33,176 nt of DNA from an uncultured bacterium. Its GTDB lineage: Bacteria; Patescibacteriota; Minisyncoccia; Phycocordibacterales; CAINVO01. The notes beneath the pieces were generated by a model. That model made no database searches, was not told the DNA's origin, and saw nothing but the letters and a program-made list of their open reading frames with translations. The position numbers were made by a program, and so were the translations under genes. Positions 27,183 through 33,089 of this stretch are shown one piece after another. Each line of letters opens with the position of its first letter. The first letter of the stretch is position 1. The stretch covers positions 1-33,176 of the forward strand of contig CAINVO010000040.1 in NCBI GenBank assembly GCA_903854195.1, in the 5' to 3' direction.

Positions 27183-28286
27183 ATGGCATCATCTAATACT
27201 CCAACTTCACAGCACTTATCTTTATATAGAAAATATCGACCTACAGTTTTTGATCAGGTTGTGGGGCAGGAACAAGTTGTTGAAGCTCTTAAGGGTGCAC
27301 TTCAAAATGGAGCTATTGCTCATGCATATCTTTTTTATGGTACACGTGGTACTGGAAAAACTTCTGTTGCTCGTATTTTTGCTGCAGCTCTCGGCACATC
27401 CTCAAATGATCTTTATGAAATAGATGCCGCATCAAATAACAGTGTCGATCAGATTCGTGATCTTAATGAGTCAATCAATACTGTTCCACTTCAGTCTAGA
27501 TATAAAGTATATATTTTGGATGAGGTACATATGCTTTCAAAAGCGGCTTTCAATGCGTTTTTGAAAACTCTTGAAGAACCTCCAAAACATGTTGTTTTTA
27601 TTCTAGCTACCACAGAGCTTGAGAAAGTTCCAGAAACGGTGATATCTAGATGTCAGGTTTTTACTTTTAAAAAACCAAACCGTACAGTTCTTCGTCAGGT
27701 GGTGGAGAGTACTGCAAAGAGTGAAGGGTTTGCTATTGATGGAGATGCTGCAGAGCTCGTGGCACTACTCGGCGATGGATCTTTCCGTGATACTCATGGA
27801 GTGCTACAAAAAGTTTTGTCAGGTGCAAAAAAAACAGTCAAACGCAAAGATGTTGAACGTTTAACGAATGCACCCAAAGGGGAATTGGTAAATGATCTGA
27901 TAAATTCAATTGCAATTGGAGATCTGAATAAGGCCCTTTTTGTTGTATTGGAAGCTTCTCGTGCAAACATTGATATTTCACTTTTTGTCACACTGATTAT
28001 TCAAAAGGTGCGTGCTTTTCTTTTATTAAAATACAGCCCATCTGCGGAGAGTTTTTTGAAAGAAGATTTTTCTTCGGAGGATTTTAATATGTTGAAAGAA
28101 TTGGTAAAAAAAGCAGGGGATCAGAGTGGCGCTTCTTCTGCGAACGCCTCGGGTATTAATTCCTTAGTTCTGTCTGAGCTTTTGTCTGTCTCAGCGGCTA
28201 TTTCTCGTTCTGTGGTGCCCCAAGCCCCACTTGAGCTTGCATTGATTCGGCTTATCGGGCAGAATATCAAAGCGACCGAAAAGTAG
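27183..28286 (+). CDS. dnaX: DNA polymerase III clamp-loader subunit gamma/tau, short form lacking zinc module
   Basis: YRPTVFDQVVGQEQVVEAL, AYLFYGTRGTGKTSVARIFAAALG, YEIDAASNNSVDQIRDL, VYILDEVHMLSKAAFNAFLKTLEEPP, FILATTELEKVPETVISRCQVFTF. Confidence 0.96.
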   Translation: MASSNTPTSQHLSLYRKYRPTVFDQVVGQEQVVEALKGALQNGAIAHAYLFYGTRGTGKTSVARIFAAALGTSSNDLYEIDAASNNSVDQIRDLNESINTVPLQSRYKVYILDEVHMLSKAAFNAFLKTLEEPPKHVVFILATTELEKVPETVISRCQVFTFKKPNRTVLRQVVESTAKSEGFAIDGDAAELVALLGDGSFRDTHGVLQKVLSGAKKTVKRKDVERLTNAPKGELVNDLINSIAIGDLNKALFVVLEASRANIDISLFVTLIIQKVRAFLLLKYSPSAESFLKEDFSSEDFNMLKELVKKAGDQSGASSANASGINSLVLSELLSVSAAISRSVVPQAPLELALIRLIGQNIKATEK

Positions 28287-28331: not shown

Positions 28332-28402
28332 TGGGGGATCGTCTAATGGTAGGACAACAGATTTTGGTTCTGTTTATCGGGGTTCGAGTCCCTGTCCCCC
28401 AG
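28332..28402 (+). tRNA. tRNA-Gln (anticodon UUG), no encoded CCA
   Basis: tggggga acceptor pairing tccccca; D-arm gtctaatggtaggac; anticodon arm acaga-ttttggt-tctgt (TTG); T-arm cgggg-ttcgagt-ccctg. Confidence 0.93.
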
Positions 28403-28574
28403 CAGTCATCTGAGACCGACCGAGGTCTATATATCAACACTTTTTTGAGAGCAGAAGTTCGCACCAGTCATGGACACGAACTTTGTACAAGAGAGTGAAG
28501 AAATGTAGAATCTCGTTTGAATTATCACACGATACTATTCCGTAAATTGCATACCTGCTTAGAGCAGTATTCAG

Positions 28575-28621: not shown

Positions 28622-28630
28622 TGGTAAAAT
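28622..28630 (+). promoter_or_regulatory. Extended -10 promoter (TGg-TAAAAT)
   Basis: TGGTAAAAT then taaatg then ATG 28637 (second of two tandem ATGs). Confidence 0.5.
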
Positions 28631-28633
28631 TAA

Positions 28634-29404
28634 ATGATGGATTCATCTACAATAAATAAGATATCACAGCTTAAGATTGCTCTTGAAAAAGTAGATGGCT
28701 TTTCTGCTGAATTTGGTTTGCGGATTCAAAATATCGTTAATGAACACAAGACAAACGGTGGACATCTGGAATACGCTTATGTTGAGCATTTTCATAAAGA
28801 GATTGTTGGTCTCTCAAAGTTATTTCAGTATCTTTTAAAAGATGACTTTAATCAGAAGTATGTTTTCTTTGCTGTCAGAGCATCTTTTGAGGTCATTTTT
28901 TATCTTGAATATGTATTACGATTAGCTAAGGAAGACAGTAAAAAAGTACTCGAATTGCTTTCTCGGGATATGGCACAAATTGGATCGGCAATAGATGCTG
29001 CGATTCCACCCAAAGAAGAACATGATATGCACAAGACACTTAAAGCCGTTGGTGTTGTAAATAAAATTCTTAAAACAGATTTTGATTTAGCAAAAGTAAA
29101 ATCAAATACAAAAGTGTTTCCATCAATCAAAGATTTATGTGACAAAAGCTCGCTCAATCTTAAGGATCAAAGAGATTCGAGTATGTATCACATTTATGTT
29201 CTTTATAGTGAATCAAACCATCTTCGCTTGGGTAACCAGCACGCCATTACAGATGATGTGGATTTGTTAACTTGTTGGGCGTTGGAATACTTCTTAGAGA
29301 TTTACATAAAATTTTATCAACAACTCATAGATACAAAAATCTTTCCTGAAAAATACACTAGTGACTTAATGGCAATAAAGCAATCTATAGGTATGAGTTG
29401 GTAG
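28634..29404 (+). CDS. DUF5677/HEPN-like helical protein
   Basis: 256 aa; VRASFEVIFYLEYVL and YVLYSESNHLRLG motifs shared with 30729-31493 product. Confidence 0.55.
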   Translation: MMDSSTINKISQLKIALEKVDGFSAEFGLRIQNIVNEHKTNGGHLEYAYVEHFHKEIVGLSKLFQYLLKDDFNQKYVFFAVRASFEVIFYLEYVLRLAKEDSKKVLELLSRDMAQIGSAIDAAIPPKEEHDMHKTLKAVGVVNKILKTDFDLAKVKSNTKVFPSIKDLCDKSSLNLKDQRDSSMYHIYVLYSESNHLRLGNQHAITDDVDLLTCWALEYFLEIYIKFYQQLIDTKIFPEKYTSDLMAIKQSIGMSW

Positions 29405-29425
29405 AGCGTTTATATAAGTTAAAAA

Positions 29426-29434
29426 TGTTAAAAT
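29426..29434 (+). promoter_or_regulatory. Extended -10 promoter (TGt-TAAAAT)
   Basis: TGTTAAAAT then 6 nt (gtattt) then ATG 29441. Confidence 0.55.
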
Positions 29435-29440
29435 GTATTT

Positions 29441-30724
29441 ATGTCTGGACCAGCACTAATATTTGATAAATCCGCGCTTCAAGGGTTAAGTGCAGATGAA
29501 TCCATGTGGCTTGAAAATTTCTATACTACAAATATAACCCCATTATTTTTTGTGGAGACTCTTGCTGATCTCGAAAAAGAAGTACGCTCTAAAAGAAAAC
29601 CAGAAGATATTGTCGGAGATATTGCTCACAAGACACCCGATATGGGATGTGTAAATACTCACCACAGAGATTTAATGGCTGGAGAATTAATGATGAAAGG
29701 AAAAATAAAAATGGATGGAAGACCTCTTCTTTCTGGAGGAAGAACTGTAGAGTTAGGGGGTAAATTAGGAGTGCTTTTTCAAGATGCTCCTGAGGTAGAA
29801 GCATCCAAACGCTGGGAAAAAAGGCAGTTTTTAGAAATAGAAAGAACCATTGCGAAAGGTTGGAGAGAAGAACTTTCTTTAATGGGGCAAGAAGATTTTA
29901 CATATTTTGAAAAACTTTTTGATGCGATGGGTAAACCAAAAACATTTAAAGAATTAAAAACTCAGATTGACTTAATGATTAATGAGAAAACAGGAGAAAC
30001 CCTTTTTGAATTTGGAATGACTCTTTTGGGTGTTATGCCTGAAACTAGAGCTAGGGTCATTGAGATTTGGAAGGCTTCTGGCTCTAAACCAATAAGAGAA
30101 TATGCTCCATATTTTACATTCGTATTTTCAATAGATTTATTTTTCTATGTTGGAACAGCTGGTAAACTTTTTAATCAGTTTCCACATGCCCAAACTCACA
30201 AAGTAGATATAGCTTATCTTTACTATCTTCCATTTTGTAAGATATTCACATCAAGCGATAAACTTCACATTACACTGGCTCCAATATTTATGGAGCCAGA
30301 TCAAACTTTTATCTCAGGATCTGATCTAAAAGCTGATTTTGCAAAACTTGATGCTCTTTATGATTTACTACCCGATGAAGTGAAAAATAGAGGCTCAGTG
30401 GTATTTGCACCATGTCCTCCTGATGATGTTTCATTTCTCACTACTCAAATGTGGGATAAATACATGGCAAAAGAATGGAGAAAAATAAAAGATCGCATGC
30501 GTAAATTTGATGGAACAGATAAAGTTAATCCAGAATTAGAACAGGCTCTTTTTGAAAAACTGAAAAAGTTCGCAAAGGAATCAAAAACAGTAAGTCCAGA
30601 TAAGCTTCCAGATTCCGACGAAGCTGATAGCATGATGACTAGACACATGGTTTCTATACAAAAAGGTAAATGGAAAAAGTTTCCACCTGAAGTAATAAAT
30701 AGTAATAAAAGGATCCTTGAATAA
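29441..30724 (+). CDS. Putative PIN-like domain protein with large internal insertion
   Basis: 427 aa; N-terminal ALIFDKSALQGLS...FFVETLADLEKE and C-terminal DIAYLYYLPFCKIFTSSDKLH resemble PIN-fold acidic motifs. Confidence 0.55.
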   Translation: MSGPALIFDKSALQGLSADESMWLENFYTTNITPLFFVETLADLEKEVRSKRKPEDIVGDIAHKTPDMGCVNTHHRDLMAGELMMKGKIKMDGRPLLSGGRTVELGGKLGVLFQDAPEVEASKRWEKRQFLEIERTIAKGWREELSLMGQEDFTYFEKLFDAMGKPKTFKELKTQIDLMINEKTGETLFEFGMTLLGVMPETRARVIEIWKASGSKPIREYAPYFTFVFSIDLFFYVGTAGKLFNQFPHAQTHKVDIAYLYYLPFCKIFTSSDKLHITLAPIFMEPDQTFISGSDLKADFAKLDALYDLLPDEVKNRGSVVFAPCPPDDVSFLTTQMWDKYMAKEWRKIKDRMRKFDGTDKVNPELEQALFEKLKKFAKESKTVSPDKLPDSDEADSMMTRHMVSIQKGKWKKFPPEVINSNKRILE

Positions 30725-30728
30725 AATT

Positions 30729-31493
30729 ATGGAACAAAAATTGAAAAACATTATTGAAAAGACTTTGAAAGTTACGGATCCACTTGTTAATGTGGGAGCT
30801 CCTTCAGATTCTAAATTCATTAATGTAATTCTTGGTATATATAGGGTATCGTTTGGAACACTTAGAGATATTTATTATCTCTCTAGTAATGAAGATGTTG
30901 GTAGTAGTTCCTTGGCCTTAACTAGAAAAATTATTGAATACGGAATTACAGTTGAATACATGCTTTGGAAAGGAAAAGAAAAAATGGCTGAGCAATTTCA
31001 AAAGCACTTATATAAGGAAATCCATGAAGAGATTGAATTTTTAAAATTTATAGGACAAAATCCTGCAGATCAAAGTGGTGAACTAAAAATTGGAGTTGAA
31101 GACTCTGAAGAGAAATACAATAATCTTAATTCCGAAGCGAAAAGTAGAAATAGCTGGGCTGGAATATCAGTAGATAAAATGGTTGAAAAATTGCACGAAG
31201 CAAACCAGTTAAAAGATTTTGATTTTTCACGTATAAGCCAAGCGTATATATGGGGATGTCGTTTAAATCACGTAAGCCCTATGGTGGTTCAAAATTATAT
31301 GAGTCAAACAGAAGCTGTTGTAGCAAGTAGTTTTTATCTGCGACAAGCACTTATGATCGCAACTCTTTTTCATATCCGTCTAACGACAAGATATATAGAT
31401 GAAATTCGTTTAATTAAAGGTGTAGATGATCACAAAGATATAGCTGATGAAATATTATTAATTTGGGATGATATTAATGCTATAAAAGAGTAA
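30729..31493 (+). CDS. DUF5677/HEPN-like helical protein
   Basis: ORF track 30717 uses TTG overlapping upstream CDS; ATG 30729 (MEQKLKNIIEK) preferred; motifs TRKIIEYGITVEYML and AYIWGCRLNHVSP. Confidence 0.6.
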   Translation: MEQKLKNIIEKTLKVTDPLVNVGAPSDSKFINVILGIYRVSFGTLRDIYYLSSNEDVGSSSLALTRKIIEYGITVEYMLWKGKEKMAEQFQKHLYKEIHEEIEFLKFIGQNPADQSGELKIGVEDSEEKYNNLNSEAKSRNSWAGISVDKMVEKLHEANQLKDFDFSRISQAYIWGCRLNHVSPMVVQNYMSQTEAVVASSFYLRQALMIATLFHIRLTTRYIDEIRLIKGVDDHKDIADEILLIWDDINAIKE

Positions 31494-32769
31494 TTTTCTT
31501 ATCTTTTAGGATTAACTTGCTTCTCAGGTGACTTAATAGTTCTCTTTTTTCATACATAGATTTTTTTCTCAGGATATGTTTTGCATAATTTCTGATGTCT
31601 ACTTCTTTAATCTTCACTTTCTCTTGAACTGCTCGTCCGAGTACTGATTCTTGAAATTCATTATGTGACTCTATTTCAGATTTAATTTTGTCTTTCATTC
31701 CTATCTCATCAAGTGAAACTGTATCGAGTATATTCGCTAGTTGTTCAATCAGCTCTTCCTCGCGTACATATCCACAAGGACAATTTTTGTCCTTGAATTT
31801 TGTACATCCGTAGTAAACATATCTATTTGTTGTACCATCTTTAAGTTTTTTAAATTTTTCATCTGCGGTGATTCCTGATTCGCACAACCCACATGTAATC
31901 ATTCTGGTGAAAGCGAACTCTTTATCTTGTGCTCGCACCGTATATTCATTAGTTATCTTATTTTGTACTTGGTTATATAAATCTTTTGTAATAATTGGCT
32001 CGTGTTTTCCTACATACCACAATCCACCTCCTTTTGGATATTCAAACTCTCCATAATAGAAAGTGCTTTTGAGGATGATATAAATATTACTTAGTGTTAA
32101 CGGTTTACCACTTTTTGTTTTGAATAGTATATCTTCCTTAAGCCATCTGAAGAGTTTTCGTCCAGACCAACCATCGTACGCAACTTTTTCAAACATCTGC
32201 TTGATTACACAAGCTCTTTGTTCGTCGAGAACTACTTCACATTTTCTTCTTCTGTCTGAATGGTTCAAGTACCCAGTTGGTGCTACTGATGGCCACAATC
32301 CCATTTCAACTCTTGCTCTCAAACCTCTCTTCACATTAACCATCTTGTTGTCGTTTTCAAGTTTGGCTTGTGACCCAAGAATCATCAGAAGGAATTTTTC
32401 ATTTGGGTTATTTGTAAACTTTTGTCCGTAAGTTCGTATTTCAATTAAGTGTTTTTGATCCATTAGATCTACTACACTTCCGAGATCACCTGCATTTCTT
32501 GATAGGCGATCTGGTGCCCATGTAAGTATTCCATTAAACTTTCCTTGTCTGATTTCATTGATAAGTTCGTTGTACACAGGTCTTTGACCAACCTCTTTAG
32601 AAGAGTGTGATTCACGCTTTATTTCTACTATTTCAAGCCCCTCACGTTCCGCTAGTGACTGCATTTCCTTCACTTGAGACTCTATCGAAAGAGCCTGTTT
32701 ATCCTCCTGTTCTGTTGATTTTCGGGCGTATAAACAGTACTTTATTTGTTCTTTTTCCATACACATCAT
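31480..32769 (-). CDS. Large serine recombinase (resolvase + recombinase domain + zinc ribbon)
   Basis: YCLYARKSTEQEDKQALSIESQV (catalytic Ser), GILTWAPDRLSRNAGDLG, TGYLNHSDRRRKCEVVLDEQRACVIKQMFE, MITCGLCESGITADEK...YYGCTKFKDKNCPC. Confidence 0.95.
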   Translation of the reverse strand: MMCMEKEQIKYCLYARKSTEQEDKQALSIESQVKEMQSLAEREGLEIVEIKRESHSSKEVGQRPVYNELINEIRQGKFNGILTWAPDRLSRNAGDLGSVVDLMDQKHLIEIRTYGQKFTNNPNEKFLLMILGSQAKLENDNKMVNVKRGLRARVEMGLWPSVAPTGYLNHSDRRRKCEVVLDEQRACVIKQMFEKVAYDGWSGRKLFRWLKEDILFKTKSGKPLTLSNIYIILKSTFYYGEFEYPKGGGLWYVGKHEPIITKDLYNQVQNKITNEYTVRAQDKEFAFTRMITCGLCESGITADEKFKKLKDGTTNRYVYYGCTKFKDKNCPCGYVREEELIEQLANILDTVSLDEIGMKDKIKSEIESHNEFQESVLGRAVQEKVKIKEVDIRNYAKHILRKKSMYEKRELLSHLRSKLILKDKKITLL

Positions 32770-32882: not shown

Positions 32883-33089
32883 GTGAAAAATGAGTCAGCA
32901 AAATTGGGTAAAAACATGAAGAAAATTCGAACTGAGAAAGGTATCTCTCAGGGTGATATTGCTCGTGCACTAGGGCTTGGGCGAGGATATATAAGTAATA
33001 TTGAAAATGGAAAAACAAATCCTACACTTTCAACAATTACTAATCTAGCAAAAGCTCTTGGAGTCTCAACTAACGAACTCCTAAAATAA
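32883..33089 (+). CDS. XRE-family HTH transcriptional regulator (GTG start)
   Basis: 68 aa; KNMKKIRTEKGISQGDIARALGLGRGYISNIENGKTNPTLSTITNLAKALGVSTNELLK. Confidence 0.93.
   Translation: MKNESAKLGKNMKKIRTEKGISQGDIARALGLGRGYISNIENGKTNPTLSTITNLAKALGVSTNELLK

Follow-up and report, generated by a model that had tools for sequence, protein, structure and literature searches.

A predicted split PIN-type nuclease as probable defence cargo of a serine-integrase element at tRNA-Gln in a Patescibacteria genome

The window analysed here, a stretch of 33,176 nucleotides that forms one whole contig of an 814-kb Patescibacteria genome, carries three genes (A, B and C) between a tRNA-Gln gene and a large serine recombinase. 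The reading we favour, at a probability of roughly two in three, is that these genes are defence cargo of an integrative element or prophage at tRNA-Gln, in which B is a stand-alone nuclease effector of the PIN type and A and C are not obligate to it. The trio would be accessory cargo of a serine-integrase element inserted at the tRNA gene, most likely a prophage or the remnant of one. For B we infer a PIN fold, nuclease activity, an RNA target and a trigger in infection: it would be a metal-dependent enzyme and most likely an RNase, with a helical insert that divides the domain and probably serves as a sensor or a restraint. Presumably kept off by its own insert until infection and then activated, B would act alone against the phage and protect the lysogen or the host; A and C may be DUF5677-like helpers of B or independent defence proteins. 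The features of the region are the following.

27183-28286: dnaX, directly upstream of tRNA-Gln
28332..28403, + strand: tRNA-Gln (TTG), found by ARAGORN; probable integration site
28404..28430, + strand: probable left attachment site AGTCATCTGAGACCGACCGAGGTC, carrying a GACC element; direct repeats stand at the corresponding place in relatives
28634..29404, + strand: gene A, 256 aa, divergent DUF5677-like helical protein
29441..30724, + strand: gene B, 427 aa, predicted split PIN-like nuclease family
30717..31493, + strand: gene C, 258 aa, DUF5677 (PF18928)
31480..32769, - strand: large serine recombinase (Pfam Resolvase, Recombinase and Zn ribbon), convergent with the cargo
32883..33089, + strand: Cro/C1-type HTH regulator, 68 aa (Pfam HTH_3, E=3e-19), adjoining the recombinase start

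The ORF and tRNA coordinates agree with the preliminary description in that three co-oriented ORFs lie downstream of the tRNA gene and in that the second and third overlap, the end of B and the start of C sharing 8 nt. Inspection of the start region of C revealed a TTG start preceded by AAAGGA, with an alternative ATG start just past the stop codon of B. The contig ends 407 bp beyond the integrase gene. The 68-aa HTH protein is very like one found in the cargo slot of another locus (L179), and is possibly a controller protein common to these elements.

The co-directional genes, the short gaps, the B-C overlap and the good ribosome site before the TTG would all fit an obligate system of A, B and C, for example one in which B is a toxin, one DUF5677 protein keeps it in check and the other does the sensing. 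A candidate three-gene system had been proposed, and a search for the same trio in other genomes had been named as the test that might refute it; the trio was found nowhere else among about 77 B loci. A DUF5677 gene lay near B at two of the 76 other loci and was absent from the remaining 74, and with no trio elsewhere the three genes are therefore not a conserved system. The two loci were detected by a DUF5677 profile search and missed when the complete A and C proteins served as queries; in one, from Granulicella (L030), B and DUF5677 lie near conjugation genes, and in the other (L052) near GmrSD-like genes and a tRNA-Asn. Two such cases exceed the 0.03-0.06 expected from random density, which counts in favour of an obligate link, yet in both the genes are 0.9-1 kb apart and arranged in a different order, a pattern to be expected where defence islands are shared. 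Among the 380 genomes searched, moreover, strong B matches (four genomes) and DUF5677 (21 genomes) coincided only in the present one. Weighing both sides, we consider an obligate trio unlikely.

Both neighbours of B had been described as DUF5677/HEPN-like proteins with a shared signature. The DUF5677 part of this label stands: C matched PF18928 with 37.5 bits against a curated Pfam cut-off of 27.1 (E=3.2e-9), and A, for which hmmscan gave no PF18928 match, scored 14.9 bits with a DUF5677 HMM built here without A, the best score among A and 2000 shuffles. As A falls below the Pfam cut-off and matches this HMM weakly, it is called DUF5677-like only. The signature itself, RxxxE-x6-Y ... Yxxx[SC]xxxH, is real in both proteins and weak for A; it occurs in at most about 1 in 3,000 shuffles, and all six residues, the conserved R-E-Y and Y-S-H, are present in A (R82-E86-Y93 ... 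Y188-S192-H196). BLASTP gave no alignment between A and C. Searches of genomes, plasmids and viral contigs brought up no relatives of A at useful significance, and C likewise had no match in the plasmids and viral contigs. The HEPN part of the label is not supported, since a conserved Rx4-6H motif is absent from C and from its closest relative (42% identity, from a genome in which B was not found), and since Foldseek of the all-helical model of C (pLDDT 80.5) against the PDB returned no significant match to any solved structure, HEPN included. In protein A, a single sequence without homologues, RDSSMYH and RLGNQH each fit Rx4-6H once. Among the papers searched, one, on Salmonella severity, mentions DUF5677.

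Gene B matched no model in Pfam, NCBIfam, PHROGs or PADLOC. The 380 Patescibacteria genomes yielded three strong homologues besides that of the window (39-41% identity), and a profile made from these four sequences was used to search an 84,980-species collection, in which 89 loci were confirmed and 79 kept. As judged from these matches, the family extends over at least 89 contigs and more than ten phyla, its bacterial hosts including Patescibacteria, Acidobacteriota, Nitrospinota/Nitrospirota, Proteobacteria, Bacteroidota, Ignavibacteria, Verrucomicrobiota, Planctomycetes, Poribacteria, Omnitrophota, Chlamydiae and Hydrogenedentota; it was also found in two archaeal bins. Many of these hosts are metagenome bins, so that individual phylum assignments may be wrong. 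Three IMG/VR contigs carry B, and a truncated Granulicella copy was the sole find in plasmids, phages and E. coli. The C-terminal end varies among members: in those of Bacteroidota it is a SEC-C zinc motif (CPCGSGKK..CC), at the position of which the window protein has a KGKW motif. PADLOC E2/PDC matches seen in some relatives were traced to this SEC-C motif and set aside.

PIN-like acidic motifs separated by a long insert had been noted in the middle protein, and the alignment of 61 homologues establishes them far beyond chance. All 61 sequences share D9, K10, S11, E39, D256 and D273; Y259 and a YYLPF string are also invariant, and the only fully invariant acidic residues are the quartet D9, E39, D256 and D273. 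The D9-E39 and D256-D273 spacings (30 and 17, respectively) are constant in all aligned members and that between E39 and D256 is 210-223, so that ~165 inserted residues would separate the two halves of a PIN core. Among 26 true PIN toxins retrieved as a reference set the corresponding spacings were about 30-45 and mostly 18; the order of the acids and the spacing within each half of B are as in these toxins.

The AlphaFold2 model of B, built on the 61-sequence alignment, is confident (pLDDT 92.4). It runs from strand-D9 through helices, a strand and a helix with E39 into a helical insert, which is followed by a helix with D256, a strand (268-271), D273, a helix and a strand. This order of elements provides the strongest support for a PIN fold short of a solved structure, and is not proof of one. 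Foldseek of B gave nothing significant against the PDB and viral models, with only a weak match to the PIN domain of SMG6 at an E of 2.7; HHalign of the spliced core against the 26 PIN toxins did not rise above shuffled columns, and a Pfam search of spliced cores gave no match. As profile searches found no resemblance to PF01850 or to its related models, B is termed PIN-like and is not counted among the Pfam PIN proteins. With VapC and the other PIN toxins of PF01850 it has in common the same invariant D..E..D..D quartet and a like spacing in both halves; it differs from them in the lack of any sequence or profile match, in the distance of about 217 residues from the E to the third acid, and in having no VapB-like partner.

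VapC-type PIN toxins occur most commonly in toxin-antitoxin or addiction loci, and one possible explanation is that B is a conditional toxin of this type, which stabilises its element and has no part in defence. Its presence on mobile elements would agree with this, as would the nucleotidyltransferase-like gene that follows a B relative in L009. There is, however, no recurring partner in the 76 loci, the immediate neighbours differ in nearly every one, many B genes are isolated, with divergent genes on both sides, and the published defence protein DS-3 has no antitoxin (PMC13092281). The nucleotidyltransferase was rejected as a standing partner, its motif being present in L009 only. An addiction toxin appears to us improbable.

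At a number of loci the neighbours of B speak for the defence reading. Immediate co-directional ones include DUF6414, a PD-(D/E)XK protein, a weakly GIY-YIG-like protein and an E2/ThiF fusion as well as, by reading of the sequences, TIR, HsdS, HsdR and trypsin-like proteins. HsdR-type genes occur near B at about 8 of the 76 loci, and integrases or serine recombinases at about ten. The gene lies within Type I RM operons in four loci (L086, L076, L080 and L266), follows an E1/E2-type gene in L077 and adjoins tyrosine integrases in L084, L085 and L060. On one IMG/VR phage contig (L265) type III RM genes are followed by B and then by Mu-type-like phage genes, and on another IMG/VR contig (L266) B sits inside its RM operon directly after a trypsin-like gene; gene names in both were assigned by reading the sequences. 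In L031 B occupies the same tRNA/serine-integrase slot, at a tRNA-Ser and with a homologous integrase beside it, and in L016 it adjoins a tRNA-Gln that follows dnaX, which is also where the window has it.

An additional scenario makes B an RNA-processing enzyme with a regulatory or housekeeping role, whose travel on mobile elements is incidental. The SEC-C ends of the Bacteroidota relatives suggest protein or nucleic-acid binding, and many B loci have no recognised defence genes nearby, which also tells against the defence reading. Yet the gene is patchy and rare (strong matches in 4 of 380 Patescibacteria), broken copies occur (truncated in L008; split in L056, L065, L068 and L074), and the RM and integrase neighbours also argue against such a function, which we hold to be very unlikely.

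Two further arrangements were observed at B loci. A trypsin-like protease gene lies directly 5' of B in two distant loci (L266, 7176-9275, and L082, 5005-7215), a possible protease-nuclease pair. In L077 (4430-7674) a Prok-E2_C/ThiF fusion gene stands 17 bp upstream of a B gene with an extra C-terminal domain.

That the trio is mobile-element cargo beside a recombinase, as first suggested, is upheld by the convergent serine recombinase and by the architecture seen around its relatives. These integrases, found in the window and in L162-L222, form a CPR-wide family; relatives were present in 63 of 287 sampled Patescibacteria genomes (about one in five), and the genome under study has three copies. 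The sixty-odd loci display a common plan, consisting of a tRNA gene, cargo mostly in the direction of the tRNA, an integrase facing the cargo and often, beyond it, ParB-TerS-TerL. The tRNAs concerned are Gln, Ser, Asn, Glu, Trp, Arg, Asp, Lys and others. A tRNA lay within 5 kb on the 3' side of the integrase in 45 of 60 cases, compared with 4 of 48 on the other side (p=1e-12), and all 45 point towards the integrase. The phage genes ParB, TerS and TerL, named by reading the proteins of L178, which served as queries, are mainly on the integrase 5' side, where 36 of 64 relatives have them; with one query no terminase was found in the present genome, and in the window the contig stops before such genes would be reached.

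A GACC element about 20 nt after the tRNA was found in 31 of 44 integrase-linked tRNA flanks and in 5 of 52 control tRNAs (p=6e-10); it was chosen and tested on the same data, and leads all 256 tetramers by several orders of magnitude. A palindrome, GTCANNTGA, was also considered as an attachment motif and was not clearly enriched, whereas GACC is. In one genome (G265) a 29-bp sequence located 2-30 nt after tRNA-Gln has a second copy at a distance of 18.0 kb, and another genome (G060) repeats a 21-bp sequence at 14.7 kb, both being expected attachment repeats; 7 of the 11 elements tested had no clear direct repeat. A second attachment site was not found in the window's own genome, and its left site is given as probable because the right end of the element is beyond the contig.

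The slot is empty in L162, L178, L207 and L212. Elsewhere, its cargo or near neighbours match type II RM, GmrSD, SIR2, AriA, a HEPN model, PD-T4-2, PD-Lambda-3 and others, in a scan that excluded loci with host-like genes in the gap and that reports raw matches, not enrichment over random loci. The tRNA-integrase slot thus often holds defence genes. The earlier interpretation is partly supported: it holds for mobile cargo in such a slot, and not for a three-gene module. Beside an integrase relative in L092 (8303-15924) the tRNA-Gln slot contains an OLD-like ATPase, and on the other side of that integrase lie an EcoRI-type methylase, a GmrSD_N/HNH gene, a 243-aa gene, DUF5677 and a macro domain gene. 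Slot cargo that is helical and, by eye, HEPN-like was noticed in L164 (8440-8925), L216 (6577-7527) and L222 (1906-2571).

The nearest described counterpart of B is DS-3, a validated one-protein defence found in E. coli with DefensePredictor, in which a PIN domain is split between the N and C terminus; its defence is lost on mutation of catalytic residues, and its authors suggest auto-inhibition (PMC13092281). Both are single proteins without a constant partner and would have PIN halves on the N- and C-side (acids 9/39 and 256/273 in B), a likeness of layout as described in that paper and not one of sequence homology. DS-3 comes from E. coli, whereas B occurs in Patescibacteria and many other phyla and has a variable C-terminal end; at the DNA level, a search of 5,426 E. 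coli genomes with a Pseudomonas B gene gave no match. For the slot, a parallel is provided by the P2 and P4 phages, whose integrases are of the tyrosine type. Integrase-side defence hotspots are known in these phages and their satellites, and in others (PMC9122126), and like the window slot they hold variable antiviral cargo at a fixed place beside the integrase. The window slot differs from them in its serine integrase, in its position between the tRNA attachment site and the integrase, and in belonging to phages of Patescibacteria. Such a slot is not described in the searched passages of two papers on Patescibacteria phages (PMC13059738, PMC12911398).

A broader proposal would be that the split-PIN immune nucleases represented by B are an undescribed family of nearly pan-prokaryotic range and, at the same time, that the serine-integrase/tRNA slot is the main exchangeable immune store of the prophages of Patescibacteria, whose genomes are mostly without CRISPR; we put this forward tentatively, as a possibility rather than as our expectation. 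If true, these results would name a nuclease family that is absent from the model libraries searched and that accompanies RM systems, phages and integrases in bacteria as well as archaea. The defences of Patescibacteria are little known, and the gap between tRNA and serine integrase would then offer a simple address at which their immune genes may be found.
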